A DNA stretch of 64,000 nucleotides from Halovenus carboxidivorans (GTDB lineage: Archaea; Halobacteriota; Halobacteria; Halobacteriales; Haloarculaceae): contig NZ_WUUT01000005.1 in assembly GCF_009831575.1 (NCBI RefSeq), forward strand, positions 186,001 through 250,000. Reading direction: 5' to 3'. Below are positions 999 to 18,224 of this stretch, piece by piece. The stretch's first letter is position 1. Each line of letters starts with the position of its first letter. A program made the position numbers and the translations under genes. The notes below the pieces were generated by a model. It saw only the letters and a program-made list of their open reading frames with translations. It did not search any database and was not told the DNA's origin.

Positions 999-2276
999 GT
1001 GACGCAAGAGATTCATGAGGAAGCGGAACCGGATAATGCTAAGGAGCAAGTGAAGGGTATTACACTTCGCTGGGAGGAGTCTTTAGATGGACCTCAGTGG
1101 AGTGATATACAGGCCGATGATGCTCTGGAGACAAGTCAGCTCGTTAAGTCTGACAACAGCTTCGTCATCACGGAACTCACACAAACAGAGTTCGACAGGA
1201 TTGTAGAGTTAAGCCAGATCGAGCGGTTCGACGATTTCGCTGAGAAGCTTGCGGTTCCTTCGGAAGAAATTACGGTTCCCAGAGGCAATCTATATTTCCC
1301 TGAAACAGAGTGGAAAAGAATTCGAAATAGAGTCGAACAGGCGTTGACGAGCGGGAATCACGTGTTGCTGTTCGGTCCGCCTGGGACAGGGAAAACAAAA
1401 TTGGCGCGGCAAGTGTGTGAAGCGACGGTGGGTGAGGATACGTCGGAGCTCGTGACAGCGTCGGCTGATTGGTCGACGTTCGACACGGTCGGCGGGTATC
1501 AAACGACCACGCAGAATACGCTGGAATTCGAGCCGGGAGTTGTGTTAGACCGGTTTCAGGCAGATGGCGACGGGACACCCGCGAATGAGTGGCTGGTCAT
1601 CGACGAACTCAACCGGGCAGATATCGACAAAGCGTTCGGGTCGTTATTCTCGGCATTGACGGGAGAAAGCGTCACATTACCGTTTGATGACGCCGACGGG
1701 GATCCGATCGAGATCCTCGACGCATGCCGCAGCCACGAGGAGATCGGTCAGAACCGGTTTTTCATCCCTGAGGACTGGCGGATGTTAGCGACGATGAACA
1801 CGCTCGACAAGACGTCGCTGTACGAGATGAGCTACGCGTTTATGCGACGCTGGGCGTTCGTCCCTGTCGGAGTTCCTGATCTTCCTGAGCGTGAGGATGG
1901 TGATGATTCTGCACTCGAATCACTCGTTGCAGACTATGTCGCAGTCTGGGCGGCAAACGGTGGAGTTCCGGAAGCAGACCAGCACTACGAGACGATCGGG
2001 CGTATCTGGCGAGCGGTTAATGAACAGCGAGCCATCGGACCAGCCATCGTTGAGGACATTTATGAACACGTTGCAGCTGCTCCCTCAACGGAGACAGCGG
2101 ATTACGTTTCGCCGATCATTATGTATGTGTTTCCGCAGTTGGAAGGGCTGCGGCGGAATGAGTTAGAGCAGCTGATTGGGGCGCTTGACGAGATTGTTGA
2201 GGACGAGACGGGAGAGTTGTGGACAGTCGCACGTGATTTCTTCCAGATTGAGCTGCAGCCAGGTGGGGGAGAGTAA
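999..2276 (+). CDS. McrB-like AAA+ ATPase of a type IV restriction module (downstream half of split gene)
   Basis: A 425-residue protein from a GTG start, in the same frame as the upstream EVE gene and separated from it only by TAA and 18 bases. Residues 1-75 match the C-terminal half of an EVE domain (ending SFVITELTQTEFDRI). The AAA+ core follows: Walker A GPPGTGKT at 126-133, Walker B with LVIDELNRAD near residue 200, and the McrB-type sensor MNTLDKT before an arginine-rich segment (MRRW). McrB proteins use nucleotide hydrolysis to translocate DNA and activate the McrC nuclease, which is encoded 6 bases downstream. GTG at 999 is the first plausible restart after the stop. If it is used, the ATPase carries only half of an EVE domain, so its DNA recognition would depend on the upstream fragment or be lost. 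Confidence 0.8.
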   Translation: MTQEIHEEAEPDNAKEQVKGITLRWEESLDGPQWSDIQADDALETSQLVKSDNSFVITELTQTEFDRIVELSQIERFDDFAEKLAVPSEEITVPRGNLYFPETEWKRIRNRVEQALTSGNHVLLFGPPGTGKTKLARQVCEATVGEDTSELVTASADWSTFDTVGGYQTTTQNTLEFEPGVVLDRFQADGDGTPANEWLVIDELNRADIDKAFGSLFSALTGESVTLPFDDADGDPIEILDACRSHEEIGQNRFFIPEDWRMLATMNTLDKTSLYEMSYAFMRRWAFVPVGVPDLPEREDGDDSALESLVADYVAVWAANGGVPEADQHYETIGRIWRAVNEQRAIGPAIVEDIYEHVAAAPSTETADYVSPIIMYVFPQLEGLRRNELEQLIGALDEIVEDETGELWTVARDFFQIELQPGGGE

Positions 2277-2282
2277 CTGAAG

Positions 2283-3676
2283 ATGGCGAAGACGACTGAA
2301 GAGGCGTTGTTGGGAGAGATTGCCGACGATTTCCAGACGTATCTCCGGAAAGGCGTTCGATTTGATCGAGTTATCGGGTCGGCGCACGCTGATCTGGATA
2401 TCGACGACATCGAAACGCTGCTCCGGATTCACTTCGTCTTGACCGATGCTGAAGACGACAGCTCGGAAGTCGGTGTCTTGGATTTCATGCGGCAGTTGGA
2501 AGACCGGATTCGGCAGATGAAGACGACAACCGCTCCGGAGTCGTTCCAGTACCGTGGTGAGATCCGCGGACAGATCGACTGGCAGGAAACGGTGAAGACA
2601 CGGGCACGCGCTGGTCGGCTGGATGAGCCGCTGTTTGTGTGTACGCAGCCTGAAGAGCACTATAACATCGACGAGAACCTCGTGCTGAAACGGTTACTGA
2701 CGATTATTCACGAGATCGTTACAGATGACCTTGCGTACGCGCTGGACAACCCGGAGGGGTATGACTGGCTGAACGAGTGGGTGATGCCGCACACAGGCGG
2801 GAGTGGCCGGGGCGTGGAGTCAGCAGCGGAGATGCTTGACCGGATTTACGAGCAGAACATCTACCTGCAGCGGATCAACGTCGGTGATACCGATATCACG
2901 GACAGAACCATCGAGTCAGTCAAGCGTTCGCGCTCGCAGTTCTATCAGGATGCAGCGGTCCTACTGGATCGGTACCGACAGTTGATGAACCACGAGTTGG
3001 ACAGTACCGAAGCGCGAGATATATTGAATCACACACTCATTGCGCCAGCGAACACGGACACGCTGTTCGAACTGTACTGGGTGTTCCGCGTACTTGATTC
3101 GTACGAGGGCGTGGAGTATCGGGTGTTGACTGACAGTCGAGATAGTCCGTCGACGATCGCTACGTGGGAGCAGGACGGGTCACAGTTCGTCTTGTCTCAC
3201 GATGCGACCGGTGAAGGGCTTTCATTCAGTGAATCAATTGGCTCTGAAGATATTGAGCCTGATGGGTACCTGTACCGTATGAACGAGGTGCTCTCCCGAT
3301 GGCAAACGATCTCTGAGGATCTGCTTGGGCGTGGTGGCAGTGATTCATTGTGGGGCGGCCGTCCTGATATCGTCTTGGAGCGATACCGGGAGACAGAGGC
3401 TGGTGGGACGGAACTTGAACAAGTGTTCCTTGGTGAAGTGAAGTACACGCAGAATACCGACTACGTCGTAACCGGGCTCAGGGAACTACTGGAGTACATG
3501 GCGTTTTCAAACAGTCGGAGACTAACGAGTACGTTGAATCCGCAGAAGACCTACTGGAGTCAGTCAATGTCAAGGGGTTGCTGTTCGTCGACGAGTTAGC
3601 CCGCGAAACAACCGCTAACCGCGACGAAGACGTGAAAATAATTCAATACCCAGAATCACCGGGAGCGGTATTGTAA
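2283..3676 (+). pseudogene. McrC-like PD-(D/E)XK nuclease, frameshifted near the C-terminus
   Basis: The frame opened by ATG 2283 encodes a McrC-like subunit: an N-terminal region that would contact the McrB ring, a helical middle, and a C-terminal nuclease with PDIVLERY and then FLGEVKYT (acidic residue, then ExK). After LLEYMAF (codon ending 3506) the frame becomes unlike the family and stops at 3599. In the -1 frame, from about 3506, a sensible McrC tail continues (EYVESAEDLL, then VKGLLFVDELARE, ending PGAVL) to TAA 3674-3676. One base therefore seems to be missing in the T/A-rich stretch at 3503-3513. The catalytic residues precede the lesion, but the last roughly 55 residues are replaced. 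A sequencing error or ribosomal frameshifting are the alternatives. Confidence 0.75.
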
Positions 3677-3706
3677 GCCGGATCGCCGTGGACTTCGAAC
3701 TCAGTT

Positions 3707-5110
3707 TTATTGGGTGCTCATTGTAATCTGGGTGTTGTAGACCTCCGCGACGGCGCCCGTGTAAGTATCGTCGAGGATGGCGATCAAATCGGGATTTTCG
3801 ACGACGAGATCCGAAAACCCTCGTTCGAGGGCAGCCACGTAGGCCGCAAAAAAATCGCTGTGCTCGTCAGGGACGATGTCGTACTCTGCCGAGATCATGT
3901 TCCGTTTATTCTCGGTGCGACTGGCAGCGTCCGGCAGCGCTGCGTCGATCGCATCTGCCCGCTCATCGAAGTGCTCCGATACAGCATCGATGAACGATTG
4001 ATCGTTTGCTCCCATGTTCCGGAAGTAGAGTGTGAGCGTATTGTCTCTGATTGCTGTTTCACGGTCGTTTTCGAGGCGGTGATGGAACCCGCTTCGGGCG
4101 TCGTTTCGATCATCTGGCCGGCCGTGGAGGACGTCTGTGAGGTCGTCTGTGTGTCGCCACCAGCCGTGTTTGAAGATCATCCCCCAATCGGAACTCGTTG
4201 AGCGAAACCACCAGTCCCCGATAGCGTCGTTCGCACACTCGAACAGTACGTGGTAATCGCTCTCCGAGCGGATCGATCCTTCATCGGCGGTGACGAGACG
4301 ATCTGAAAGCCGCGAGGGCCAGTTATGAGAGAACGTCTCCCACTGGTTCTCGAACGTGTCCGTCACGTCAGCGATGGCATCGTAGTGGTCGAGATACAGT
4401 TCGACTTTCTCGTCAACGTCGTCGGTGGGATCTGACATACCTGTGATGGATCGAATATCGTCAACGAATTCGTGGAGTTGTACGACGGTTCGTTGTGGAT
4501 ATCGTGGTGCGTTATTGACGATGAAATTTGTTAGGACCGTTTCGACGAAGGCTGTCCACGTCCAGTTACTGAATTCTGGGTCGTTCGCGTCGGGCCGGTC
4601 GTTTTGATGCAGATAGAGATAGTACGCGCCAGACTCGTAGTCGTCCTTTGGAACACCGTCGATGTGCGTGACGTCCTGTCGATAGAACTCTGTTTGAGTG
4701 TCTTCGGCAGAGAATTTGAGTTCGACTAGGAGGAACCATTCGTTTGGGACTTGAACTGCTAGGTCAACGAATCCTGACGACAATGTTTCTCCGCCGACCT
4801 GCTCAGTGAGCCGTACTTGATCGTCGACGACGACATCCGAGAGGTCGTGGATATCCTCCTCGAATCCACACGCGTCGGGGAGGCCATTGAGAAATGCGCG
4901 GAGAAATTCCGAGTTCATTCGATGTGGCTGTTCCGGGTCGAGGAAGTATGCGAAGAGACGGTTGATGTACACCTCGGCTTTCTGTTGCGTTCCTAACGAG
5001 TATTCGATCACGTCCATCAGCGATCGGGGCGTTTCGGGAACCGCGGTGAGTTGCTCCCACCGGCGTGTCAGTCTCGTTAATTCCTGTCGCAAGTCGTCTG
5101 GCTCGGTCAT
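3707..5110 (-). CDS. PD-(D/E)XK nuclease family protein (467 aa)
   Basis: A stand-alone protein convergent with the McrC-like gene. The nuclease core is visible as D116 in SGFVDLAVQ and E130/K132 in LLVELKF, followed by a helix with QTEFYRQDV that resembles the QxxxY-type motif. The N-terminal 110 residues are helical and the C-terminal half (residues 230-467) has no motif I know. The layout fits the PDDEXK_4-type proteins often annotated in bacterial and archaeal defence islands. A TATA-like element (reverse strand of 5142-5149) lies about 35 bases before the ATG and supports this start and its own promoter. Target and partner are unknown. It may be a solitary nuclease or an accessory of the neighbouring McrBC-like module. 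Confidence 0.75.
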   Translation of the reverse strand: MTEPDDLRQELTRLTRRWEQLTAVPETPRSLMDVIEYSLGTQQKAEVYINRLFAYFLDPEQPHRMNSEFLRAFLNGLPDACGFEEDIHDLSDVVVDDQVRLTEQVGGETLSSGFVDLAVQVPNEWFLLVELKFSAEDTQTEFYRQDVTHIDGVPKDDYESGAYYLYLHQNDRPDANDPEFSNWTWTAFVETVLTNFIVNNAPRYPQRTVVQLHEFVDDIRSITGMSDPTDDVDEKVELYLDHYDAIADVTDTFENQWETFSHNWPSRLSDRLVTADEGSIRSESDYHVLFECANDAIGDWWFRSTSSDWGMIFKHGWWRHTDDLTDVLHGRPDDRNDARSGFHHRLENDRETAIRDNTLTLYFRNMGANDQSFIDAVSEHFDERADAIDAALPDAASRTENKRNMISAEYDIVPDEHSDFFAAYVAALERGFSDLVVENPDLIAILDDTYTGAVAEVYNTQITMSTQ

Positions 5111-5456
5111 ACCATCCTCTATCAGGACAACTCAATGGAGAAGTATAGGAGCTTTGCCAACATATTGTGGAATAAAACTAATACACGGTTTGACAGATGT
5201 TTAGAGAGATGAATACGATATACAGACAAGCGGCTCTGTTGAAATTCTTTAACCCAGACAGGAATCAGGTGCGGAATACAAGACACAAGTCTTGCACAAT
5301 GCTTCAGTCAGATTCAACCTGATCGGATCGATCCGTACAAGATATGTATTCAGCAGTCTGCTTCTGGTGCTTTCACAACGAAACACGTCTGATCGATAAA
5401 TAATGAGTGAATTAATTGATTAAAATACAAGTTCTAAGAAATAGATTGTTAGCACT
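5111..5456. other. A/T-rich intergenic region between divergent genes
   Basis: I see no convincing gene here. The left end carries the TATA-like element of the nuclease gene (5142-5149, reverse strand). The right end carries a TATA element TTAAAATA (5420-5427) placed correctly for the small membrane protein at 5457. The middle is rich in A and T compared with the core part of the window, which fits acquired DNA. Confidence 0.6.
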
Positions 5457-5750
5457 ATGACGGCGGCGCTTGAACGGTTCAAACAAAAATATGCCGGGAC
5501 AGTCGTTGGGAAATGCTTCGTACTCACCGTGACTGGGGCGGGAGTTGTTGGAATGTTCGCGGTCGGAATTCTTGAGATCTGGTTTACCACCCAGATACTT
5601 GGGTGGAGATCAAGCGCCGCATTGCTAACTGGAGGAGTGGTGGGTATCGTTGTGGCGGTGGCATTGTTTCAAGGATGGATCATGTGGCTCGTCGACTGGC
5701 GTCAACAGCCAGCCGCTCCTATGCGGGTTTTATTCGAAGAGTACTGGTGA
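5457..5750 (+). CDS. Small two-helix membrane protein, function unknown
   Basis: A 97-residue protein with two hydrophobic segments (about residues 20-47, VLTVTGAGVVGMFAVG onward, and 52-78, AALLTGGVVGIVVAVALFQG), a basic N-terminus (RFKQKY) and a short charged C-terminus. I do not recognise the family. The ATG is preceded by a TATA element centred near 5424, giving a short leader of about 7 bases, and a run of six T follows the stop, so it looks like an independent transcription unit. Small membrane proteins in defence islands are sometimes effectors or toxins, but nothing in the sequence proves that here. Confidence 0.6.
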   Translation: MTAALERFKQKYAGTVVGKCFVLTVTGAGVVGMFAVGILEIWFTTQILGWRSSAALLTGGVVGIVVAVALFQGWIMWLVDWRQQPAAPMRVLFEEYW

Positions 5751-5753
5751 GTT

Positions 5754-5759
5754 TTTTCT
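5754..5759 (+). terminator. T-run terminator after the small membrane protein gene
   Basis: Six consecutive T directly follow the stop codon of the gene ending at 5750, with further T-rich tracts near 5790. Archaeal RNA polymerase terminates at such oligo-T stretches. Confidence 0.4.
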
Positions 5760-5983
5760 CAGTCACCCAGCAGAGCATATCTATAGTAGTTTTTAACCGG
5801 TATAGATAGGGTACATACACAGCACGCGGGGTCGCTATCTTGACCTGCTCGAATCAATCAGTACAGGCGAGCAATCTAGCGCAATTGGTTACGATATATC
5901 GGAATATTGGTACGAACGGTGTACTGAGTACAGAGGATATATGTAGCAATCTGGGTTTCTGTCGTGCGCCAAAAATTAAACAT

Positions 5984-6181
5984 CTATGAACTTGCTTTTT
6001 TTCTGCTGTCGTAGTACACGCCAAACAACAAAATGAGTCCGCTCACGACCATCCCTAAGCCTGCAAAAAGGATTATAATTAATTCATCGTCACTGTTGAT
6101 GACGTAGGGAGAACCGAACGTGATCGTGAATATGAGCCCGCTAATAATCACGTAGATTGCTGCACTCGTCTGATTATCCAT
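5984..6181 (-). CDS. Small two-helix membrane protein, function unknown
   Basis: A 65-residue protein starting MDNQTSAAIYVI with two hydrophobic segments separated by the acidic loop NSDDE, ending in a basic tail (DSRKKASS), which suggests a cytoplasmic C-terminus. A longer start at 6205 is possible, but the TATA element (reverse strand of 6216-6223) would place the transcript start near 6193, inside that extension, so I prefer the ATG at 6181. It resembles many haloarchaeal hypothetical two-helix proteins and has no motif I recognise. No partner gene is adjacent; the region around it is A/T-rich. Confidence 0.5.
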   Translation of the reverse strand: MDNQTSAAIYVIISGLIFTITFGSPYVINSDDELIIILFAGLGMVVSGLILLFGVYYDSRKKASS

Positions 6182-6205
6182 ATCAGTTGTATTGAATTTG
6201 TACAA

Positions 6206-6547
6206 ACTAAGATCGTATAAATCATACTGTTAATCCTACTGACAGTCTTAATTGGCCGTACCCCACGTGTAAGACTCACGCATTTCTCTTGTACGGCGCT
6301 CAGAAAACATACGGATATTGTCAGCACTTTCAGCAGTCAATTTACAGTGCTACTGAGCAGTGGTCTCAGGAGGGAGAATAGTGGTTAGTGAGTGCTGCAT
6401 TGATCCTCTATATACAGCACGACGATAGAAACATATCACAGCTTGAGGATTTTAACAGAGCTAAACTAGCAAAGTGCAATAGTCGGGAGTAGGAATACTC
6501 TTATGACGTAACCGTTCAACGGTTGCACGTATCCGAGGGACAATTGC
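6206..6547. other. A/T-rich intergenic region with promoter of the AddAB-like operon
   Basis: No gene is visible. The left end holds the promoter of the small membrane protein gene. The right end holds the presumed promoter of the operon starting at 6548: a weak TATA-like stretch at 6496-6504 and a perfect palindrome at 6510-6524. Confidence 0.5.
6510..6524. promoter_or_regulatory. Perfect inverted repeat upstream of the AddAB-like operon (possible operator)
   Basis: AACCGTT-C-AACGGTT is a perfect 7-bp inverted repeat with a 1-base centre, 23 bases before the GTG start and just downstream of a TATA-like stretch. The placement suits a repressor site, but no regulator gene is adjacent, so this is inference from symmetry and position. 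Confidence 0.4.
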
Positions 6548-8605
6548 GTGTCACGATCATCTAGTTACCAACAGTTCACCGGAACATTAGTTACGACACC
6601 GTTTGGAGGCGAAAACGTCGAACGGACAGCGCAGGAGGAATACCGAACGCTCCTTGACGAGCATGATTCTGAGGATGTGCTGGTTATCACGGGTGCGCCA
6701 GCGAGTGCGGACACGTTCCGTGAGACGTTAGGTGAGGAACTGGCGGGTGCGGCGACGCCGTACGTGACGTCGTCGGTGGTGCACGCGACCGATGTCCTCA
6801 ACCAGACCGATGATCGCGTCATTCTCTCCGACGCGTTGCGGCGTGAACTCCTCTACCGATTCCTCGACGATTACGAGTGGGAAACCGAGTACCTGCAACG
6901 GGCGTCTGCGCAGCCGTCGTTCATCGAGGATGTGGACGCCGTGATGGGCACGATTTCTTGGCAGGCAGTCACGCCTGATGAAACTCCGGAACTCCGTGAT
7001 ATCACGGCTGCACTCGACACGTTCCACGAGTGGCTCGCAGAACACGGACACATGGAACGCGGCCAACTCATTTCGGAGGCGCTCGATGTCCTCACTGGGG
7101 ATGCCCGCGAGGCTGTCGTCGATTTCGACGCGGTGCTTGCAGTCGAGTTTGAGGAGTTTTTCCCGCTTGACCGCGCGTATCTCGACGCGCTCGTGGGGGA
7201 CTGTGAGCTCGTCTGTCTTGCTGAAGAGAACGGTAGTGTGCGGCGCACGTGGGTCGAGACGGGACCAGTCACGGACTACGTCTCGTTTAGCGAGACGCGA
7301 CGCGGGGCATCGGGAACGCCGTCGACGCGGCCAGCTGCGACGGCAGCCTATTTCGCCGACGAAACGGTCTCAGAAGATCCAGGGGCCGGGTCGGTTTCTG
7401 TCCTCGCTGCGGATTCCAGTGACGAACAACTCGCTGAGATTGCGAACGAGATCGAAGACCTCGTGTCGCAGTCGGACTGGAGGTACGAGGACATCGCTGT
7501 CGCCACGAAGCAAAGCGGCAGTGCTGTTACGGACAGTATCGAAGCGCTCGAAAGCACTGGGATTCCGACTGAATCGACGACAGTCACTGGGTTCGGTGAC
7601 GATCCTGCGATTCGAGAACTCCTCGCGGCCGTTCGATACCTCGCCGACGACGAAGACGATGTGTCCGACCACGGCCCGGCACGCGATACAGAGCGCTTAG
7701 ACCGTGTCAACAAGTCTGATAGCCTCGAAGACGCGATTCGCTGGTGGGCGACAGACTCCGGGTTAAAACAGCGGATCGCGGAGCGTGCGTCGCCGTTGGA
7801 TGCACGCGCGCAGTTCGGGAACGTCCGCCGGGCATTCCGCATGGCGGAGTTCCTCGAAGAAACAGAGTTCGTGGATGCGACGTGGGAGTCCTTTACGGAG
7901 ATGCTTGAACGCGCTCACGAGTATGCACCGCAGCAGAATCAGACGAGCGCGACAGATCTCGACGGTGGTGTTCGCGTCGATCACTTGCAAGCGGTTAAGA
8001 ACGAATCGTTCCGCGCGGTGTTTCTCGTGAATCTCGTCAACAGTGAGTACCCGGGTGACCCGTTCCTGACGCGGTTGTTTCCGACCGAGCGAGTCGCATC
8101 GATGCCGGATTACCCCGGTGTCACGGAACTCGATGGCGCGGATGTGGACGCGACGTTCCCGACGACGTCGACAGCGTCGGGACGACCGTTCGCGCAGTAC
8201 CACACGGAGCACGCGCGGCGGCGATTGGCTGTCGGTGCGGGTGCGGCAGAAGAGCGGCTCTACTGTTGTCTCTACGAGTATGAGGACACGGCACTCGAAG
8301 AGCGGACGCAGGCGTCGCGGTTTCTCACAGCGGCGTATGAAGCTTTGCCGTGGGTGACCGAGGCCGGCGAGCCACACATTACGAGTGAGCAAGCGGCGGA
8401 AACGTTCCTGTTATCGCGGGTCGACGAGGCGCTCGCGGAGGTGCGTCGCGCGAACAGTCAGGACGTGACGGTGTCGCTCGACGAGGTCGAAGCGGAACTC
8501 GGTGAGATTCAGGATCTGCTCGAACAAAGCGGGTCCCGAGGGGACGAGCTCCGGGAAGCGTTGCGTGCACGTGTCGAGTTCGCTAACGGGGAGGTGCGGC
8601 GATGA
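6548..8605 (+). CDS. AddB-like inactivated UvrD-family helicase subunit
   Basis: A 685-residue protein with the fold order of a superfamily 1 helicase but degenerate motifs. The Walker A position reads TTPFGGENVER without a GKT. The motif II region is FEEFFPLDRAYL, where active relatives have DEFQDTDRLQF. The C-terminal half keeps recognisable counterparts of motifs V and VI (VDHLQAVKNESFRAVFLVNL and a segment RRRLAVGAGAAEERLYC). This is the pattern of AddB, whose helicase core is inactive and used for DNA scanning. Unlike bacterial AddB there is no nuclease domain in this chain; it is encoded by the next gene, which overlaps by 4 bases (ATGA). GTG 6548 is the first start after the promoter region. 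Expected role: structural DNA-binding subunit of a helicase-nuclease. Confidence 0.7.
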   Translation: MSRSSSYQQFTGTLVTTPFGGENVERTAQEEYRTLLDEHDSEDVLVITGAPASADTFRETLGEELAGAATPYVTSSVVHATDVLNQTDDRVILSDALRRELLYRFLDDYEWETEYLQRASAQPSFIEDVDAVMGTISWQAVTPDETPELRDITAALDTFHEWLAEHGHMERGQLISEALDVLTGDAREAVVDFDAVLAVEFEEFFPLDRAYLDALVGDCELVCLAEENGSVRRTWVETGPVTDYVSFSETRRGASGTPSTRPAATAAYFADETVSEDPGAGSVSVLAADSSDEQLAEIANEIEDLVSQSDWRYEDIAVATKQSGSAVTDSIEALESTGIPTESTTVTGFGDDPAIRELLAAVRYLADDEDDVSDHGPARDTERLDRVNKSDSLEDAIRWWATDSGLKQRIAERASPLDARAQFGNVRRAFRMAEFLEETEFVDATWESFTEMLERAHEYAPQQNQTSATDLDGGVRVDHLQAVKNESFRAVFLVNLVNSEYPGDPFLTRLFPTERVASMPDYPGVTELDGADVDATFPTTSTASGRPFAQYHTEHARRRLAVGAGAAEERLYCCLYEYEDTALEERTQASRFLTAAYEALPWVTEAGEPHITSEQAAETFLLSRVDEALAEVRRANSQDVTVSLDEVEAELGEIQDLLEQSGSRGDELREALRARVEFANGEVRR

Positions 8606-9504
8606 GTTCGTCGCTCTCCCCGTCGCGGTTAGCGAATTACGCGACGTGTCCGCGCCTGTACGACTACCGGTACGCGCAAGATGTGAACGCGCCGGATCGG
8701 ACAGAACTGTATCTCAACCAAGGAACGATTTACCACGAGACGATCGAAGACGTGTGTACTGCGACTGACCGCGATGACGACGCGGAGACGATACACGACC
8801 GTGCGATGCAGGTCTTCGAGGCGAAGTGGGACGAACACAGTACGCCGGACGACTACGAATCCGCTGCGCATCAGGAGTATCAGCGAGCGGAGAACCGCGC
8901 GGCCATTGCGTCGTTTTTCGATCCGGACGGCGGTGACGGGATCGAGCACGCTCGCTTCTCGGCCGCTACGGAATGCTGGGTGGAGTGCGAAGTGGAGGGT
9001 CGAGCACTCCACGGGAAAGCTGACAACGTCATCCGAACGGAAGACGGACTCCACATTTTCGACTACAAGCGGAACACGAACGGTGTGCTTTCGTCGAGGA
9101 CAGCTGAGTACCTTGGCGACCATCTCGACGGGGAGGCCCACGAACCGAAGCGGGTCCGGAATGCGTTCCAAACGGCGGTGTACGTCGAGGGCATGAAGAA
9201 CGAGCCGTTCTACGAGGACGGGATGGAGGTCCGGTTCAGTTTCTACGGTCTCCTCAACAGCACGTCGTTCGAGAGCACCCCGAGCGGATACGACGTGTCC
9301 GCGCGCGGTTGGCCTCGGGAAACGACGGAGATCTACGAGGAGCACTACGACACGATTTGGGCGCTCATCCGAGATGCCCACGATGGCATCACGAGTGAGA
9401 CGTACGAACCGGACCTGCTCGACCTGATCACTGAGGAAGCGTGCCCGGACTGCGACTATCGAGAGATGTGTCCTGACCGCCTGTCGACGGAGGTGCAGCA
9501 ATGA
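8602..9504 (+). CDS. RecB/Cas4-type PD-(D/E)XK nuclease with Fe-S cysteines (AddB nuclease domain as a separate protein)
   Basis: A 300-residue nuclease. LSPSRLANYATCPRLY at the N-terminus contributes Cys16. H45 lies in GTIYHETIED, D141 in HGKADNV, D154 and K156 in HIFDYKR, and a QxxxY motif in FQTAVYVEG. The C-terminal CPDCDYREMC gives Cys281, 284 and 290. Four cysteines around a PD-(D/E)XK core form the Fe-S staple known from AddB and Cas4. It is overlapped by 4 bases on both sides (start inside the upstream stop, end inside the downstream start), so the three proteins are probably made together and form one complex. A Cas4 role is unlikely because no cas genes or repeat array are present. 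Confidence 0.8.
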   Translation: MSSSLSPSRLANYATCPRLYDYRYAQDVNAPDRTELYLNQGTIYHETIEDVCTATDRDDDAETIHDRAMQVFEAKWDEHSTPDDYESAAHQEYQRAENRAAIASFFDPDGGDGIEHARFSAATECWVECEVEGRALHGKADNVIRTEDGLHIFDYKRNTNGVLSSRTAEYLGDHLDGEAHEPKRVRNAFQTAVYVEGMKNEPFYEDGMEVRFSFYGLLNSTSFESTPSGYDVSARGWPRETTEIYEEHYDTIWALIRDAHDGITSETYEPDLLDLITEEACPDCDYREMCPDRLSTEVQQ

Positions 9505-12500
9505 GCGACGACGCCGAGTACCCGTCGTGGTACCCGGTCCCGGAGGAAAACGTTTCCCCGGAGCCCCAACAGCAGACGATCATCGATTCCGACGCCTACC
9601 CGATGCGTGTCCTCGCAGGGGCAGGGACGGGGAAGACGTTCACGATGGTGCGGAAGATCGAGCACCTCATCGACGAGGAAGGCGTGTCGCCGGACCGGAT
9701 TCTCGCGTTGACGTTCACGAACAACGCGGCGGACTCGATGCGGGAGAAGCTCAACGCGAAACTCGGGACCGCGGGGTACGACATCGACGCGTACACGTAC
9801 CATTCGATCTGTAACGAGATTCTCACCGACTACGCCTACGAAGCCGGGATTGACCCGGATTTTGAGGTTGCCACGGACGCTGAAAAGTACGCCATCGTTC
9901 TGGACGTCCTTGATGAGATCGAGTACCGGTCAGTTAAACCGAACGTGTACGGCAGCGACGGGTACGCGTCCGGAGCTGCGTCGAAGCTCCTCAACTTCAT
10001 CGGGTCGATGAAACGAAGCGGCATCACGCCCGACGATATCGACGCGTTCCTCGGGCCCGCCGACCGCGTCTACGACCTCGGCGACCTTCCGGAACGCATC
10101 GAAACGATTGCCAGCGACCACTTGGGAGGCCGTTCCGTGTCAAGCGTACTGGACTCACTGCCCGACGTGCGCGATGAACTCACGGCGGAACGCGACGCAT
10201 TAGGAACGAACGGCATCAAAGCCAGCGCCCGGGACTTCCTCGACCGGCTCATCGACGTGTGTGACGCGCTTGAAACCGCGTTCGAGGCCCACGACAATGG
10301 CGAGCGTGACCTGCCAGACAACGCGTACAAACTCCCGAAGTACCTGTTCGGAGGGTATGCGAGCGGCGCCCCGAAAGGAATCCCGAACAATCTTGACCTC
10401 GAACTCACTGATCACCTCGACTCGTTCGTTTCCGACTGTCTTGCTGCCCGAGATCTCACCGCAGGGTACGCTGCGTACGAGCAAGAACTGGACGAGCGCA
10501 ATCTCATCGACTTCGACGGCCTGGTCGTCGAGACAGCCACGTTGATGGACTCGCCGATTGGCGAGGAAATCGCCGAGCGGTGGGACTACGTGTTCTGCGA
10601 CGAGTTCCAGGACACGGATCGCCTCCAGTTCGACCTCGTCACGTCACTCGTCACCGACGACAACCTGTTCGTCGTCGGGGACGACGATCAGGCGATCTAC
10701 GAGTGGCGCGGCGCGAACGTCGCCAACATCACCGACGAACTCGACCGGGCGTTCACGGCGCTCACGGACGAACCACTAGAGGAGAACTTCCGGTCCCGGC
10801 AACCGATTCTCGACCTGGCGAACGAGGCAATTCAAAAACTCGACCACCGCGAACGACACAAGACACTCACTCGCGTCGACGAACCCGCGTACGACGGGGA
10901 CACCGTCGCTACCGTCGAACTGCCGGGCGAAGACGACGACGCGGACGGTGCTTCTCAACTTCGCACCGTCGTCCAGAATGTACTGAGCGGTGCAGCGGAC
11001 AACCTCGATGAGGCGTACGATCCGGGTGACATCGCGGTACTCGTTCGGAAGAACGCCCACGCGACACCGGTCATCGAGGAATTCGAAGACGCCGGGATTC
11101 CATACCAGGTTGCGGGGGATTTAGCCACGGAATCAGTCGGCGTCGGCACCGTCACCGCCTACCTGAAGGCGCTTGCACGCCCCGAAGACGAGGTGAGCTG
11201 GAATCGCGTCCTCCTGATGCGGTACCGGCTCTGCGATGCAGACCTTCGCACGCTCAACGCCGGTGACGAGCCGCTCGTAGATACGCTCCGGGAGGCACCC
11301 CTCGACGAGTTCGAAGAGCCGGACCGCGTCGCAAAAGCCCGCAAGCACGCCACAGAATTACTCGAACTCCGCGACGCAGCGTCACTCAGTCACCTGTACC
11401 GGGAACTCAAAGACGTCACGAACATCGAGTGGTATCTCAGCGAGCAGGAGCGCCGGGATCTCACACAACTCGATGACGTCATCGACCAGTACGGGGAGAG
11501 TGCCGTGCAACCACCGCTCACCCCGGAGTTCATCGACTCGCTCGAACACTACGACTCGTTGTTCGACGAGAGCGGCACCACCCCGACGAGTCAGCCGGAC
11601 GTCGCGGACGACGCGGTCAACGTGATGACGATCCACAAGAGCAAAGGACTGGATTTCCCCGTCGTTCTCATCCCGCAAATCACAGCTGAGGAGTGGGCCC
11701 CGAGTTCACGAACGTACGACGCGCTCGAAACCGCGCTTTCAGACGGCGCGACGGCAGCGTTCGCACAGGATTTCGTCGAGCGCGATGCCCGTGAAACCCG
11801 TCGTGTGTTCCACGTCGGGATCACTCGTGCCGAGGACATCCTCGTTCTGCAGGGCGGCAGCGAGGAAGACGACGAGGCTGCGGATGAGGAGTCGGTCTCA
11901 GAGAGAGTTGACGAAATACTTCCAGCTCGAATTCCATGGCAGCCAGAGCGAGGACACCTCCCACTCTGGACCGACGTTCAAGAGTGCCTCCCGGGCGACG
12001 CAGTAGACTGGACGAACACGCTGGCTGGCCAGACAATCGGTGATGTTGGTGGTTCCATCAATCATGACGGAGAAGAGGTTGCGGTAGAGACTGCGCGCGA
12101 CCGCGTGCTAACTCTTGCAACGGCCACTCTCGACGGCGCGCTCTCATCGAGAACCGAACGGGAGGTGCTCCGAGTCGCGTCACTGACTGGCCCGACGATA
12201 CCATCACCATCCTTATCGCACAGCTACACGTCGCTGGCAGCCTACGAAGAATGCCCGCGGAGTCACTATCTGGAGTACGTTGTCAATGCGTTCCCTGATT
12301 ACCAAGAGACCACAAGCAACGACGGGGATGGTGTGTCGCAACGGACAATCGGGTTGTTGTTCCACGACACTGCAGAGCAAGCCGCGAATCAAGGTGTGGA
12401 ATGCCGTGAGGAGTGGTACGGAATCTGCGAGCGCCTCGCCAGTCAGCGCCGCGCTGAGGACGCGCTCCCGGCGGCGAAGCAGTGTATCGACCGGTATTTC

Positions 12501-12956
12501 GAGTTAGACCTCCCCGGTTACGAGATTATCGACGCGGAGCGAGAGTTCGAACTCGATATCGATGGGCACGAACTCGTCGGCTACATCGACGCCGTGTACC
12601 GGACACCGGACGATGACCTCCTCGTCATCGACTACAAGGCGACTGAACGTCACCGAGATCTGCAAGACGACAAGCAACTCCCGATTTACCTGTTAGCGTG
12701 CCGGGATCTATACGATGAGCCAGTGACGCGTGCTGGGTACGCATACGTTGGTGAAATTGGGCCGAAGGTCGAAACGCGAACGTTCAGCGACGGTGATCTG
12801 GAAGTAGTCCGAAACGACGTGACGGAGTCGATGCATCGCATTGCCGAGTTTTCCTTCAGTCGGTATACTGCTGGCGAACACTGTCAGTGGTGCCAACACA
12901 ACCAACTGCCTTGCGCACCAGACTCGTTTACTGTTGGCCCGGGATTCGAGGAGTGA
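9501..12956 (+). CDS. AddA-like UvrD helicase fused to a C-terminal Fe-S PD-(D/E)XK nuclease
   Basis: A 1151-residue protein with all SF1A helicase motifs intact: Q-motif EPQQQTIID, Walker A GAGTGKT (40-46), DEFQDT (about 367), VVGDDDQAIYEWRGA, TIHKSKGLDFPVV and VGITRAEDIL. The last 250 residues form a second nuclease: C918 in YEECPRSHY, D1030 in GYIDAVY, D1044 and K1046 in VIDYKAT, then QLPIYLLA and the cysteines of CQWCQHNQLPC (1128, 1131, 1138). It would unwind and degrade duplex DNA ends together with the two upstream proteins. Bacterial AddA also has a nuclease at this place but lacks the Fe-S cysteines; here both nucleases carry them. Likely job: end processing in repair or destruction of invading linear DNA. 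Confidence 0.85.
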   Translation: MSDDAEYPSWYPVPEENVSPEPQQQTIIDSDAYPMRVLAGAGTGKTFTMVRKIEHLIDEEGVSPDRILALTFTNNAADSMREKLNAKLGTAGYDIDAYTYHSICNEILTDYAYEAGIDPDFEVATDAEKYAIVLDVLDEIEYRSVKPNVYGSDGYASGAASKLLNFIGSMKRSGITPDDIDAFLGPADRVYDLGDLPERIETIASDHLGGRSVSSVLDSLPDVRDELTAERDALGTNGIKASARDFLDRLIDVCDALETAFEAHDNGERDLPDNAYKLPKYLFGGYASGAPKGIPNNLDLELTDHLDSFVSDCLAARDLTAGYAAYEQELDERNLIDFDGLVVETATLMDSPIGEEIAERWDYVFCDEFQDTDRLQFDLVTSLVTDDNLFVVGDDDQAIYEWRGANVANITDELDRAFTALTDEPLEENFRSRQPILDLANEAIQKLDHRERHKTLTRVDEPAYDGDTVATVELPGEDDDADGASQLRTVVQNVLSGAADNLDEAYDPGDIAVLVRKNAHATPVIEEFEDAGIPYQVAGDLATESVGVGTVTAYLKALARPEDEVSWNRVLLMRYRLCDADLRTLNAGDEPLVDTLREAPLDEFEEPDRVAKARKHATELLELRDAASLSHLYRELKDVTNIEWYLSEQERRDLTQLDDVIDQYGESAVQPPLTPEFIDSLEHYDSLFDESGTTPTSQPDVADDAVNVMTIHKSKGLDFPVVLIPQITAEEWAPSSRTYDALETALSDGATAAFAQDFVERDARETRRVFHVGITRAEDILVLQGGSEEDDEAADEESVSERVDEILPARIPWQPERGHLPLWTDVQECLPGDAVDWTNTLAGQTIGDVGGSINHDGEEVAVETARDRVLTLATATLDGALSSRTEREVLRVASLTGPTIPSPSLSHSYTSLAAYEECPRSHYLEYVVNAFPDYQETTSNDGDGVSQRTIGLLFHDTAEQAANQGVECREEWYGICERLASQRRAEDALPAAKQCIDRYFELDLPGYEIIDAEREFELDIDGHELVGYIDAVYRTPDDDLLVIDYKATERHRDLQDDKQLPIYLLACRDLYDEPVTRAGYAYVGEIGPKVETRTFSDGDLEVVRNDVTESMHRIAEFSFSRYTAGEHCQWCQHNQLPCAPDSFTVGPGFEE

Positions 12957-13120
12957 AATTACCCGACACAACCCCATAGGACAGTTCCCCGACTCGATAA
13001 TCCCAATTTCTACGGTACCTCTCAAGAGATATGATGCCCTGATCGAAGTGCGAGAAACACTCCGATAGGGATGGCTACCCGAATTCTTAAGCCATTATCG
13101 TAGTAATTATTATTTAGAGT

Positions 13121-14512
13121 ATGACCTTCTACGACCGGGAAGAAGAGCTCGGGACCCTTACGACTGCGGCCGAGTCCCCCGGTTCAGACTTTATTGTTGT
13201 CTACGGCCGCCGTCGAGTCGGAAAAACAGAACTCCTCAAAAAATTCTGTGCTGACCGTCCCCACATTTACTTCCTCGCTTCCCAAGAAGCCGAGCATCGG
13301 CAACGCGAGAAATTCCTCGACCAAGTCGCGGACTACTTCGACGAGCGCGTCCCGCGAATCGACGGGTGGGACGAGGCGTTCGAGTACCTCGGGGAGAAAC
13401 TCCAGCGAGAAGACCTGGTTATCGTCATCGACGAGTTCCCGTATCTCGTCGAAGAGAACGACTCGCTCCCGTCGTATGTCCAAGGATTCGTTGACCAGGC
13501 ACTAGATGAGACGGATTCGATGCTGGTGCTCTGCGGGTCGAGCGTAAGTACGATGGAATCCGAAGTTTTGGGTCATGAGAGTCCACTGTACGGCCGACGA
13601 ACGGCACAACTCGACGTGACACCGTTTTCCTTTCAACAAGCACGCGAAGTCATCTCGTACGAGATTACAGACGCCATTCGGTCGTATGCCGTCACGGGTG
13701 GGACCCCGATGTATCTCACTCTGTTCGATTACGATCAATCGCTCGCGGCAAACATTCGATCACACGTGCTGTCACCGTCTGCGGTGTTATATAACGAACC
13801 GGAGTTTCTCCTGCGAACCGAACTCCGAAACCCAGCGCGGTACATGAGTATTCTCGAAGCGGTTGCAATGGGGCACACGACACCGAACGAGATTTCCGGC
13901 GCAACGGGGATCGATTCAGGGCCGCTCTCGAAGTACTTACAGACACTGCGTCGACTCCGCCTGATCGAACGGGACGTGCCAGTGACAGCGTCCGGGAAGA
14001 AGTCGAAGCGGTCACGGTACCGCGTTGCAGACGAGTTTCTCCGGTTCTGGTTTCGCTACGTCGAGCCGCATCGCTCCAGTATTGAGGAAGCACCAGCAGT
14101 CGTGTACAACGGGACGATTGAACCAGACCTCCCGATGCACGTCGCAACGACGTTCGAGGACGTGTGTCAAGAAGCAGTCTGGGAAGGAATTCGACAAGGC
14201 AGATTCGATCCGTACTCCGAAGTCGGTCGCTGGTGGTACGGCGAAGACGAAATCGACATCGTCGGATTAGCCCCGAACGACGATCGAGTTCTCCTCGCCG
14301 AATGCAAGTGGACGACTGAGCCAGTTGGGGAAGACCTCGTTGAGAGTCTGCAGGCAAAGGCGGAAAGCGTTCGGTGGGGGCCAGCAGATCGAGACGAGCG
14401 GTTCGCCGTATTCTCAAAGAGCGGGTTCGTCGATGGGCTTGACACGCAACTTGACGACAGGTGGTCGTTGTTTACCTTAGCAGATATAGACGACATACTC
14501 ACACTAACCTGA
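13121..14512 (+). CDS. Archaeal ATPase (ATPase_2) with C-terminal DUF234-type nuclease-like domain
   Basis: A 463-residue protein. It has Walker A GRRRVGKT (29-36), Walker B LVIVIDEFPYL near residue 103, a STAND-like ATPase core, and a winged-helix region (TTPNEISGATGIDSGPLSKYL). The C-terminal DUF234 domain has DEIDIVGL and AECKWT, the acidic and ExK elements of a PD-(D/E)XK fold. This architecture is widespread in archaea and in bacterial mobile regions; its biochemical role is not firmly established. It has its own 164-bp upstream region, so it need not belong to the AddAB-like operon. Start ATG follows an A/T-rich stretch and precedes the ATPase domain by the usual short distance. Confidence 0.8.
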   Translation: MTFYDREEELGTLTTAAESPGSDFIVVYGRRRVGKTELLKKFCADRPHIYFLASQEAEHRQREKFLDQVADYFDERVPRIDGWDEAFEYLGEKLQREDLVIVIDEFPYLVEENDSLPSYVQGFVDQALDETDSMLVLCGSSVSTMESEVLGHESPLYGRRTAQLDVTPFSFQQAREVISYEITDAIRSYAVTGGTPMYLTLFDYDQSLAANIRSHVLSPSAVLYNEPEFLLRTELRNPARYMSILEAVAMGHTTPNEISGATGIDSGPLSKYLQTLRRLRLIERDVPVTASGKKSKRSRYRVADEFLRFWFRYVEPHRSSIEEAPAVVYNGTIEPDLPMHVATTFEDVCQEAVWEGIRQGRFDPYSEVGRWWYGEDEIDIVGLAPNDDRVLLAECKWTTEPVGEDLVESLQAKAESVRWGPADRDERFAVFSKSGFVDGLDTQLDDRWSLFTLADIDDILTLT

Positions 14513-14827
14513 GTACGACTGCCGGGACTCTCAATTAAGCAGATCTGAGGAAATAGTACAAAGGTAGTTTGGATGTTTATTCTGGGTTATCTGGTCGGTT
14601 TCAAGAGGTTACGAAGAATTCATTGAAGAGCGCGCGGTACCGTCTCTGATTCACGTCTTTTTGTAGTCAATTTGAGAGAAACTGGTGGCTTTTAGCGATA
14701 TAGTCGTGCTGTCAGTCTGCGACTCATGCTGACAGTCCGAAATCCGGCATCTGAATACCGCTAACGAGAGAAATCCGATTCATACGGCAAGGTATTAAAT
14801 TCAACCGGCGGTTTCCACCAGTTTGCG
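14513..14827. other. Intergenic region with a hairpin
   Basis: No gene seen. It contains a perfect 7-bp inverted repeat, CTGTCAG at 14709-14715 and CTGACAG at 14729-14735 (13-base loop), and a TATA-like TATTAAA near 14793 suitable for the gene starting at 14828. Confidence 0.45.
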
Positions 14828-15139
14828 ATGCAACGCGTCATCAACCGCAAACTGTACGATACGGACCGAGCCGAACAGATCGCTCAGTATGCACCAAACA
14901 CGGATCGAGGGGATTTCAACTACCTCATCGAAACGCTGTACAGAACCCCAGATGGAGAGTACTTCCTTCACGGGCAAGGTGGTGCCGCAACCGAATACGC
15001 GAAACCACACAACGGCGGTCGGATTGGTAGTGAAGAAATTGAAGCGCTCACAGAGGAAGCGGCGTTAGATTGGTGCGAAAACCGCGAAATTGACGGCGAA
15101 GTCGTCGTCGAGGAATTCGGTCACCTAGTCGAAACGTAG
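14828..15139 (+). CDS. Small protein of unknown function (103 aa), upstream of the DNA methylase
   Basis: A soluble acidic protein beginning MQRVINRKLYDTDRAEQIA with a central aromatic stretch (NYLIETLYRTPDGEYFLHG, then GGAATEYA). The N-terminal pattern, INRKxYDTxxAxxI followed by ETLYRTxxGxYFLxGxGG, resembles small uncharacterised proteins that occur in bacterial and archaeal mobile regions, but I cannot name a family function. A TATA-like element about 34 bases upstream supports this start. The next gene on the same strand is the methylase 76 bases away, with a 6-bp hairpin between them (15161-15178). Co-transcription is possible. Confidence 0.6.
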   Translation: MQRVINRKLYDTDRAEQIAQYAPNTDRGDFNYLIETLYRTPDGEYFLHGQGGAATEYAKPHNGGRIGSEEIEALTEEAALDWCENREIDGEVVVEEFGHLVET

Positions 15140-15160
15140 CGATAGGAGTCGCCTCGGAAA

Positions 15161-15178
15161 ACCTACGATTCGGTAGGT
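15161..15178. repeat. Short inverted repeat between the small gene and the methylase
   Basis: ACCTAC and GTAGGT separated by 6 bases, 38 bases before the methylase ATG. It could be a hairpin in the mRNA or a binding site; no further evidence. Confidence 0.3.
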
Positions 15179-15215
15179 GGGCGGTACACTTCGGATCATT
15201 CCCGGAGCGAGGCGT

Positions 15216-17675
15216 ATGTCAGAATCTAGGCGTGACACTCGTCTTGATCGACGAGAGACGAGGTGCGATACTCGCACGTACCACCCGACACCTGAACCCT
15301 CCGTGGGATCGAGCGGCGGGAGAGACGAATCACCGGTCACACCAATCGGGTTAGAAGCCCGTCGACGGGAGCAAATCGAGAAGGTGATCGACCATCTCGC
15401 CGGCGACGAACACGACCTCCCACCTCCGTTCTCTGAATCAGAACTCTATCGAGCGTCGGTAAACGCCGGGATTCCGGTCTGGGAACCGGCGGTGAAGGAG
15501 CGATTCACGCGCCGGGTACTTGATCACCTCAACTACGAGTGGGACCCGGTCGCCCGAGCGTTCGCACCGGTCGCTGGCGAGGCCGTGATCGAGACCATTA
15601 CAACTGCCGCTGATACCGTCGTGCCGACTCTGAATTCGGAACTGTCACGGCCGGTTCGGAGACGGCTCGAAGACTGGTGTGAGTTACACGGATTCGGTTC
15701 ACTGGAGCACGCAACTGTTCAGCGGATTATCGCACGCCAGGCCGTCTTGAGTGTCCTCCTGCAGGCGGTTCTCTACGAACGACAACGGAAGCGACACGCG
15801 TGGCCAGCACTCGATACCACTCCGCAGAACGCACTTCGGCAAATCAAGGACCGAATACCACACCTCGGGATCGACGCGTGTGTCCTTGATGACGTCGTGC
15901 GACGATTCGAGCCGGCGGACCTGGAAGCGGTCCTCGACGAACGAGACAGAGTGTTACATTCAACCCGACCCGCAGAGACCATCGGGAAGCTCTACGAAGC
16001 GCTACTCCCGAGCGAGTACCGCAGGACGATCGGTCAACACAGAACCCCACCAGAGATCGGGACCCTCATGCAGACGTGGGCGACCACCGGTGGGGAAACC
16101 GTTCTCGATCCGGGGATGGGGGCCGGCGGCTTGTCGACGCCGTTCCATCCACGGTGGGACGCGAGTACCGACCCGGGGGACGTCACGGGGATTGATCGGA
16201 GTCCAATCGCCGCCCGCATGGGCATTACAGCGCAGACACTGGCCCGGCAAGCCACGACAACTCAACTGACGGACTTCCTCGATCTCAGCCCGGGAGAGCT
16301 GGATCACGACGTGGACGCGGTGGTGTGTAACCCGCCGTATACTCGGTATCAGGAACTCCCCGCGGAGTACAGAGCCGAACGCAACGCCCAAGCCGAAGAT
16401 CAGACCGGCTTAGAGATTCCCGGCACCTCGCCGCTGTACGCGTACTTCCTGTACCACTTGCGGCAGTTCCTCGACCCCGGGGACCGGGCGGCAGTCATCG
16501 TCCCGCACGCCTTCCTGGCCCGGGATTACGGAACGCCACTCAAGCAATTTCTGTTGCGGGAGTTCCACGTGAAAGCGCTCCTGATGTCTGATCCGAATAC
16601 CGAGTCGGTATTCGAGAACGCGCAGACGACGGAACTGATCCTGTTTCTCGAAGCACGGAGTGACAGTGCGGAGACTGGCGTGACGCGATTCATCCGCATC
16701 GACGAGAAGCCGGATGTCCCGACCCTCGTCGACGCGGTCCGAACCGGCGGGGGAGAGGAACCGGACTGGGGAGCCATTCAGTGCTTCGAACAGGTGGGCT
16801 TGGATCCCGAGCGGAAATGGGACCGCTTGTTCGACCCGAGCGACGTCGAAACGTCCCCGCGTCTCACGCCGCTCTCGGAGCTCGCGGACGTTCGACGCGG
16901 ATTACAAACTGGCGAGAACGACTTCTTCTGTCTCACACAGGAGATCGTCGACGCGTGGGGAATCGAACCGCGATTCCGCGAACGGATCGTGCCGAAACCG
17001 AAGGCCGTCGAGGGGTACGATATTCGGTCAGACGACTGGGAACACTACCGCGATAACGACCGGCCCAGCTGGCTTTTATACCTTACCGATCCCGTCGAGG
17101 GAGTGCCGACAACGACTTACGATGACGAGGCTGGCCGCGCAGAGTGGAGTGAAGCGGCAATAACGGACGAACCAGTGCTCTCGGTAACGGAATATTTACG
17201 ACACGGCTTAACCCGGCACGAAACGCTCTCGACACGGGCAACCGTCCACCGCCGGGAGCCGTGGTACCGCGTTGAGCGCGGTGACGTCGCGCCGATACTG
17301 ATCGCACCGATGACTCGGTCGGGCTTCCGCTTCCTGCTCAACGATACCAACGCGCGACACTTGAACAGTTATTATGGGATTTACCCCGACGCAGGAATTG
17401 GACGGACCGGCCAGAAAGCGCTCTTGGCGTATCTGAACTCCGACTTCGTCAACAAGATCGTCTCCCGAGCGCAACACACGCTGTCAGGCGGACTCCAGAA
17501 ACTCGAACCGGGAGACGTGAAAGAGATGCCCGTCATCGATCCGCGAGCGTTACCCGATACTGTCGTTTCTACCCTCGCCGACTACTTCGACGACCTTCGA
17601 GAAGCCGAACGGAATAACGAAGACAAGGAGGCCATCATTAACCGAATCGACGCAGTATTTGAACGGGAATTGTGA
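15216..17675 (+). CDS. Adenine-N6 DNA methylase with TaqI/Eco57I-like specificity domain
   Basis: An 819-residue protein (a GTG at 15177 would add 13 residues; I prefer ATG 15216 because GGAG lies 8 bases ahead of it). Residues to about 280 are helical without a recognisable nuclease motif. The methylase core has the SAM motif VLDPGMGAGG and the adenine catalytic motif NPPYTRYQELP. The C-terminal third (RRGLQTGENDFFCLT, then LNSDFVNKI and GDVKEMPVID) is a target-recognition domain of the TaqI/Eco57I type. It would methylate adenines at a specific site, for self-marking in restriction or as an orphan epigenetic methylase. No restriction nuclease adjoins it; the next feature is the tRNA that bounds the island. 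Confidence 0.8.
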   Translation: MSESRRDTRLDRRETRCDTRTYHPTPEPSVGSSGGRDESPVTPIGLEARRREQIEKVIDHLAGDEHDLPPPFSESELYRASVNAGIPVWEPAVKERFTRRVLDHLNYEWDPVARAFAPVAGEAVIETITTAADTVVPTLNSELSRPVRRRLEDWCELHGFGSLEHATVQRIIARQAVLSVLLQAVLYERQRKRHAWPALDTTPQNALRQIKDRIPHLGIDACVLDDVVRRFEPADLEAVLDERDRVLHSTRPAETIGKLYEALLPSEYRRTIGQHRTPPEIGTLMQTWATTGGETVLDPGMGAGGLSTPFHPRWDASTDPGDVTGIDRSPIAARMGITAQTLARQATTTQLTDFLDLSPGELDHDVDAVVCNPPYTRYQELPAEYRAERNAQAEDQTGLEIPGTSPLYAYFLYHLRQFLDPGDRAAVIVPHAFLARDYGTPLKQFLLREFHVKALLMSDPNTESVFENAQTTELILFLEARSDSAETGVTRFIRIDEKPDVPTLVDAVRTGGGEEPDWGAIQCFEQVGLDPERKWDRLFDPSDVETSPRLTPLSELADVRRGLQTGENDFFCLTQEIVDAWGIEPRFRERIVPKPKAVEGYDIRSDDWEHYRDNDRPSWLLYLTDPVEGVPTTTYDDEAGRAEWSEAAITDEPVLSVTEYLRHGLTRHETLSTRATVHRREPWYRVERGDVAPILIAPMTRSGFRFLLNDTNARHLNSYYGIYPDAGIGRTGQKALLAYLNSDFVNKIVSRAQHTLSGGLQKLEPGDVKEMPVIDPRALPDTVVSTLADYFDDLREAERNNEDKEAIINRIDAVFEREL

Positions 17676-18091: not shown

Positions 18092-18166
18092 TGGGTTGGG
18101 GCGGATTCGAACCGCCGACATCCTCCGTGTGAAGGAGGTATCATAACCGGGCTAGATCACCAACCC
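18092..18166 (-). tRNA. tRNA-Val (anticodon CAC)
   Basis: The minus strand folds as a full cloverleaf. The acceptor GGGUUGG pairs with CCAACCC, with discriminator A at 18092. The anticodon stem CCUCC/GGAGG holds the loop UUCACAC, giving anticodon CAC. The T arm GGCGG-UUCGAAU-CCGCC is perfect. The D arm has three pairs plus one mismatch. There is no intron and no encoded CCA. Its 3' end faces the defence island. Confidence 0.96.
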
Positions 18167-18224
18167 GAACAACTCCACCTTACCGGGTCGTGGACTTAAG
18201 AATTGCTTTCCTGCTCCCGGACGG

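Follow-up and report, generated by a model that had tools for sequence, protein, structure and literature searches.

A split AddAB-like helicase-nuclease operon of haloarchaea with a probable role in defence

The window analysed here is a stretch of 64,000 nucleotides from Halovenus carboxidivorans (contig NZ_WUUT01000005.1, positions 186,001 to 250,000 of the forward strand). It contains an operon of three overlapping genes, P1, P2 and P3, predicted to encode an inactivated helicase, a stand-alone nuclease and an active-type helicase fused to a second nuclease. On the structural models, the architecture holds as AddAB-like with the AddB-like subunit split in two, P1 and P2 folding like AddB or AdnA. 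Descent is unsettled and, on sequence comparison, leans away from AddAB; the operon is therefore called AddAB-like rather than AddAB. On balance it probably encodes a complex that enters DNA at its ends and degrades it for defence, together with an Argonaute and a PLD (phospholipase D) protein in relatives and on its own in the window.

Three overlapping genes and their products

The operon and its main motifs are arranged as follows.

6548-8605, plus strand: P1, 685 residues, GTG start; pseudo-helicase subunit with an AddB-N/UvrD-like fold
6599-6619, plus strand: P1 residues 18-24 (PFGGENV), the loop that connects strand 8-17 to helix 23-38 and the expected site of a P-loop (secondary structure of the AlphaFold2 (AF2) model)
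7151-7156, plus strand: P1 invariant pair E202-E203 (within VEFEEF), occupying the position of motif II of superfamily 1 (SF1)
8602-8605, plus strand: ATGA overlap of P1 and P2, with a Shine-Dalgarno-like GGAGGTG a few bases 5'
8602-9504, plus strand: P2, 300 residues; stand-alone PD-(D/E)XK nuclease with four conserved cysteines (C16, C281, C284, C290)
8734-8736, 9022-9024 and 9169-9171, plus strand: P2 H45, D141 and Q190, intact in the window
9061-9069, plus strand: P2 catalytic D154-Y-K156, intact in the window
9501-9504, plus strand: ATGA overlap of P2 and P3, with a Shine-Dalgarno-like GGAGGTG a few bases 5'
9501-12956, plus strand: P3, 1151 residues; combines an active-type UvrD helicase with a four-cysteine PD-(D/E)XK nuclease
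9615-9638, plus strand: P3 Walker A (AGAGTGKT, residues 39-46), invariant
10599-10619, plus strand: P3 motif II (DEFQDTD, residues 367-373), near-invariant
12630-12638, plus strand: P3 nuclease D1044-Y-K1046, which with D1030, Q1059 and the four cysteines (918, 1128, 1131, 1138) is conserved in 80 of 81 rows of the alignment, the remaining row being truncated

The initial annotation had placed the three genes at exactly these coordinates, with the same ATGA junctions. The arrangement is not due to chance, since the same overlapping genes recur in 81 of 81 loci (80 fetched loci and the window), always as three separate genes with overlaps of 1 to 11 bases; none of these loci has a P1-P2 fusion. 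P1 occurs in 108 of the 292 haloarchaeal genomes searched. P2 was located by frame-aware tblastn; in many loci long antisense open reading frames (ORFs) outscore it in gene calling. The three proteins co-evolve, their pairwise distances being correlated with r of 0.976-0.986. In one operon (L062) P3 is truncated. P3 is present just once in the genome of the window, where the sole other match is weak and UvrD-like.

P1 had been described as an SF1 helicase-like protein without Walker A, and this is borne out. Its family matches are weak (UvrD_C 1.9e-4, addB_Gpos 1.4e-4), while profile comparison finds UvrD1 (2e-9) and AddB (3u44_B, 8e-9), the profile being collinear with AddB residues 60-353. 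The AF2 model (pLDDT, the predicted local distance difference test, of 83) matches UvrD and AddB in Foldseek with the same E-value (6e-23); it also matches AdnB/AdnA, and AddB gives the highest query-normalised TM-score (TMq 0.62-0.63). P1 is thus predicted to have the AddB-type N-terminal fold without motor motifs. The Walker A pattern is absent from all 81 P1 sequences, so that the PGAP label ‘DNA helicase UvrD’ is misleading.

The two other proteins also turned out much as first described. P2, taken to be a separate iron-sulfur (Fe-S)-type PD-(D/E)XK nuclease, matches PDDEXK_1 over its full length (5e-22) and has the four cysteines. A search of the PDB with the P2 sequence alone gave no matches; its AF2 model (pLDDT 86) finds the AdnA nuclease (6e-6) and then the AddB nuclease (2e-5) in Foldseek, both with modest scores. 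P3 carries the complete UvrD motif set, as expected of an active-type helicase (UvrD-helicase 7e-61, UvrD_C 3e-29), and ends in its own nuclease domain (PDDEXK_1, 1e-23). Absent from the earlier description are four conserved cysteines in this domain as well (C918, C1128, C1131, C1138). Since P2 and the P3 nuclease each have four cysteines, both look like Fe-S enzymes.

Kinship with AddAB and other helicase-nucleases

The likeness to AddAB resides in the order of the parts, a dead helicase and a nuclease being encoded before the active helicase-nuclease, in the AddB fold of P1 and in the Fe-S-type nuclease of the AddB-like part. The operon differs from AddAB in that every locus encodes the AddB-like subunit as a pair of genes, that the P3 nuclease also has four cysteines and that its distribution is mobile. 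Where the initial annotation saw a split AddB plus AddA, the architecture and the folds stand but the descent finds less backing, all three proteins scoring closer to archaeal UvrD-Cas4 fusions and the best family models for P3 being PcrA/UvrD, not AddA. In hhalign comparisons UvrD-Cas4 outscores AddAB from the same phylum for P1 (141 vs 126), P2 (105 vs 62) and P3 (701 vs 556), and the NCBIfam models score far under their cut-offs (addA 129.6 bits vs 707.65; addB 19.7 vs 903.7). In the nuclease tree P2 groups weakly with P3 and UvrD-Cas4; approximately unbiased (AU) tests reject neither grouping (P2 with AddB, p 0.29). The view of AddAB as a mainly bacterial system needs correction: unsplit AddB (1018-1052 residues) with AddA neighbours exists in other archaeal classes of the same phylum (L227-L231, L233, L234), so that AddAB is not purely bacterial. 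Relatives of P1 in these other classes were considered as further split forms and rejected, each proving to belong either to a UvrD-Cas4 fusion or to a true AddAB.

P3 shares its two-domain build and four-cysteine nuclease with the UvrD-Cas4 fusions (pfam12705 branch), the family closest to it in profile comparison. These fusions have been reported from mesophilic archaea in defence settings and are known beside Mod/Res genes (PMC5704561). The published family is a single gene, alone or with restriction genes (PMC5704561); in the present operon P3 is invariably accompanied by P1 and P2. AdnAB likewise has two UvrD-like motor-nuclease subunits, and its AdnA nuclease is the best fold match of P2; here, in contrast, P1 has neither a nuclease domain nor a Walker A motif and P2 is a separate gene. 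GajB models of the Gabija system match P3 solely via the shared UvrD motor, and no OLD-family GajA partner was found among the neighbouring genes scanned. In the available portion of a survey of prokaryotic Argonautes (pAgo), orthogroup og_6 is a UvrD helicase with a PD-(D/E)XK motif that occurs in pAgo operons; that portion describes neither a three-gene complex nor a split AddB-like part nor the haloarchaeal operon (PMC6299218). No paper on this three-gene complex was found among the open-licence literature.

Subfamilies, mobility and genomic setting

Among the genomes of the GTDB set the family turned up in haloarchaea alone, where it falls into two subfamilies. The P2 catalytic residues H45, D154, K156 and Q190 are intact in 43-45 of the 81 loci, among them the window, and replaced in 37, with the four cysteines kept. 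In the P1+P3 tree (FastTree; long branches) a single branch with full support splits the active-P2 from the dead-P2 set. Dead-P2 operons are the usual single chromosomal copy in Natrialbaceae, a family in which 105 of 121 genomes have P3 (identity to one another's type mostly 58-89%); they lie in conserved positions with recurring NUDIX, CBS and oxidoreductase neighbours, and their P2 is the fastest-diverging of the three proteins (mean distance 0.59 vs 0.47). The dead-P2 operons (L075-L112) being near-core in this family, they may encode a repair enzyme in their own right. The initial annotation had named conservation as core repair genes in all haloarchaea as grounds for refutation; this sister subfamily is indeed nearly core in Natrialbaceae, but the family is not core across haloarchaea, with P1 in little more than a third of the genomes. 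Several Natrialbaceae genomes contain both subfamilies, which suggests different jobs.

The active-P2 set is patchy and spread over many families and plasmids. Between the window and a genome from another family, P1 identity is 90% and RpoB identity 88%; between the window and a genome from its own family, P1 identity is just 78% although RpoB identity is 91% (the RpoB comparison leaves out G024 and G108). Fourfold sites give the same pattern, which points to horizontal transfer of the active-P2 operon. Sixteen haloarchaeal plasmid records carry the family, and active-set loci lie near varied tRNAs (Arg, Cys, Val, Glu and others). No relatives were found in viral contigs or phage records, and viral carriage was dropped as an explanation. 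The description of the region as an accessory island ending at a tRNA fits the patchy, mobile distribution, the defence setting and the tRNA-Val at its edge.

The active-P2 operon is also associated with Argonaute. In nine of 27 close loci an opposite-strand ATPase gene, a long Argonaute (PADLOC pAgo E=0, Piwi 1e-20) and an AgaP-type PLD protein lie in this order directly 5' of the operon, the PLD gene stopping 5 bases before P1. On a Salinigranum marinum plasmid the five genes from Argonaute to P3 recur, with the annotations Piwi, phospholipase D, UvrD, PD-(D/E)XK and, for P3, ATP-dependent helicase. Across the 292 genomes, the link to the operon holds for all ten full-length Argonautes of that clade (at least 84% identity), in one case over a contig break. 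One further locus combines a broken Argonaute with an intact PLD gene, and four more retain the C-terminal part of a PLD gene right beside P1; with the nine intact loci and these five, 14 of the 27 therefore have or had a PLD gene 5' of P1. Argonaute presence switches eight times along the tree, in which the window groups with two five-gene Argonaute loci. In a diverged lineage (56-62%) the PLD gene of plasmid loci comes after P3, and in two Halosimplex loci an Argonaute lies there too, with AgaP in the neighbourhood.

This arrangement recalls the haloarchaeal APAP system, in which a long-A Argonaute and AgaP restrict plasmids and a single-stranded DNA virus (PMC11442185). In relatives the operon lies directly 3' of such an Argonaute-PLD pair, and the PLD protein of the diverged lineage (HxK at 105, GSxN 51 residues on) nearly has the spacing reported for N. 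pellirubrum AgaP (PMC11442185). In contrast, the spacing is much shorter in the close relatives (19 residues), and both genes are missing from the window. The APAP work noted that some ago-agaP operons have a helicase gene close by; the split helicase-nuclease was not identified there (PMC11442185).

Several further features accompany these loci. The leader 5' of P1 is conserved in L038, L051, L052 and L057 and contains the palindrome-like cctatcagataggtct, perhaps an operator. On plasmids, an antisense gene 3' of P3 encodes a 375-residue protein (L063:5478-6605; also L059, L061, L064 and L065) with a weak match to DNA polymerase B exonuclease; its N-terminal 100 or so residues resemble the Argonaute N-terminus (about 30-35%), and it may act as an Argonaute substitute beside the PLD gene. 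A ThiF/JAB-type E1-E2-like protein is encoded 3' of the PLD gene at plasmid-borne loci (L059:17943-19709; plasmid L235:20957-22067).

The surroundings of the operon in the window are the following.

999-3599: AAA_5 (McrB-like) ATPase gene, then a gene without family matches
3707-5110, antisense: PDDEXK_4 protein, matching the PADLOC candidate PDC-S26
13121-14512, plus strand: ATPase_2 + DUF234 protein (PADLOC PDC-S27, 6.5e-58); treated as a neighbour, not as a component
14828-15139: 103-residue ORF preceding the methyltransferase
15177-17675, plus strand: Eco57I/N6-type DNA methyltransferase (PADLOC MTase_II); a neighbour, probably independent
18092-18166, minus strand: tRNA-Val(cac), bordering the low-GC region

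These neighbours (the McrB-like pair, the PD-(D/E)XK protein, the DUF234 ATPase and the methyltransferase) may simply be island-mates of the operon. The pair at 999-3599, which looks like a McrBC-type restriction pair, is also found at L058 and L070. The stretch 3707-5110 is 81-90% identical in DNA to L049, L050, L115 and L117 and therefore travels with the operon in some genomes. An integrase-type island bounded by a duplicated tRNA-Val end was rejected: the 21-base end is single in the genome, and positions 1-20000 of the window contain no matching repeat.

Proposed role and competing explanations

Gene order, motifs, folds, linkage, patchy distribution and horizontal transfer are all read from sequence; complex formation, end-dependence, strand assignment, defence and guide supply are what we infer. 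P1, P2 and P3 would form one obligate complex that acts like AddAB or AdnAB. It would load at double-stranded DNA ends, P3 serving as the sole motor that drives into the duplex. The N-terminal domains of AddB and RecC are inactivated helicase folds that scan DNA (PMC4824097), and P1 would be a dead helicase that guides, holds or scans one of the separated strands. P2 and the C-terminal nuclease of P3 would each cut one strand, leading to processive degradation. This scheme, drawn from the anatomy of the proteins and the known mechanics of AddAB, is somewhat more likely than not to be correct.

Since the relatives are mobile and often share one operon with an Argonaute defence system, the operon is probably used against invading DNA. 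The anti-invader role that the initial annotation considered plausible is strengthened by the Argonaute-PLD operons, and plasmid carriage, horizontal transfer and restriction- or defence-type neighbours point the same way. The active-P2 subfamily would then be a mobile defence module, which in relatives makes up the last three genes of an operon of five (Argonaute, AgaP-type PLD, P1, P2, P3). There the complex would destroy DNA opened by Argonaute and AgaP and possibly supply fragments as Argonaute guides. In E. coli, RecBCD shapes the small DNAs bound by Argonaute and is not required for making them; AddAB co-precipitates with TtAgo (PMC10269773). The window would hold a stand-alone derivative, acting on linear invader DNA or on ends generated by neighbouring restriction-type genes. 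The full form of this proposal, a five-gene immune operon in which Argonaute and PLD open the invader, P1-P2-P3 degrades it from the ends and feeds guides, and the Argonaute-PLD half has been lost repeatedly to leave stand-alone operons as in the window, is tentative and has somewhat less than an even chance of being right.

Some observations weigh against defence as the role. No Argonaute of that clade is present in the genome of the window, and the Argonaute link therefore cannot operate there. Nor was an AgaP remnant found in the leader 5' of P1 in the window; this candidate was rejected, the leader matching those of other Argonaute-free loci. Finally, a near-core sister subfamily fits repair. 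Repair is indeed the theme of one competing explanation, according to which the operon is a double-strand-break resection enzyme, the haloarchaeal counterpart of AddAB, that merely hitch-hikes in defence islands. AddAB and RecBCD are repair enzymes, and the dead-P2 operons of Natrialbaceae, with their single chromosomal copy, conserved positions and recurrent neighbours, look the part. However, the subfamily of the window is patchy, spread over many families and plasmids, horizontally moved and tied to Argonaute and PLD; the two clades separate cleanly, and their joint presence in several Natrialbaceae suggests different jobs. We regard a repair role for the operon of the window as rather unlikely.

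Two other explanations concern origin and partners. True AddAB by descent, with the AddB gene broken in two in haloarchaea, would account for the B-nuclease-A gene order, the AddB fold of P1 with its collinear profile, and the AddB nuclease among the top fold matches of P2. It is nevertheless improbable, given that hhalign favours UvrD-Cas4 for all three proteins, that the NCBIfam scores are so low and that the nuclease tree weakly places P2 with P3 and UvrD-Cas4, though the AU test does not reject P2 with AddB. Least credible, and indeed very improbable, is a larger methylation-based system that takes in the ATPase (13121-14512) and the methyltransferase (15177-17675) and in which the operon would serve as the restriction arm. 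A methyltransferase does lie 3' of the operon in the window and in seven of the nine Argonaute loci, the DUF234 ATPase adjoins seven operons (the window and 6 relatives), a type III-like methyltransferase and a helicase flank plasmid-borne copies, and there is the precedent of UvrD-Cas4 fusions by Mod/Res genes. Yet most operons have no methyltransferase, and relatives of the enzyme occur in 42 of the 292 genomes, many without P1, on which ground it was rejected as a fixed component. Moreover, the methyltransferase is 80% identical between the window and two Argonaute loci and replaced by 42-47% versions at other loci; it is therefore swapped freely.

Should the operon indeed be a DNA-degrading machine used in defence, its implications would reach beyond the window. 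To our knowledge, bacterial RecBCD and AddAB have been tied to Argonaute guide DNAs solely in trans, via the repair enzyme of the host; the five-gene operon would make the link between such enzymes and guide making directly testable, gene by gene. End resection in haloarchaea, as reviewed, is the work of Mre11-Rad50, beside which these organisms would gain an AddAB-type machine. The two subfamilies also amount to a natural experiment, in which a nuclease site died once in a near-core lineage and stayed active in a mobile one.

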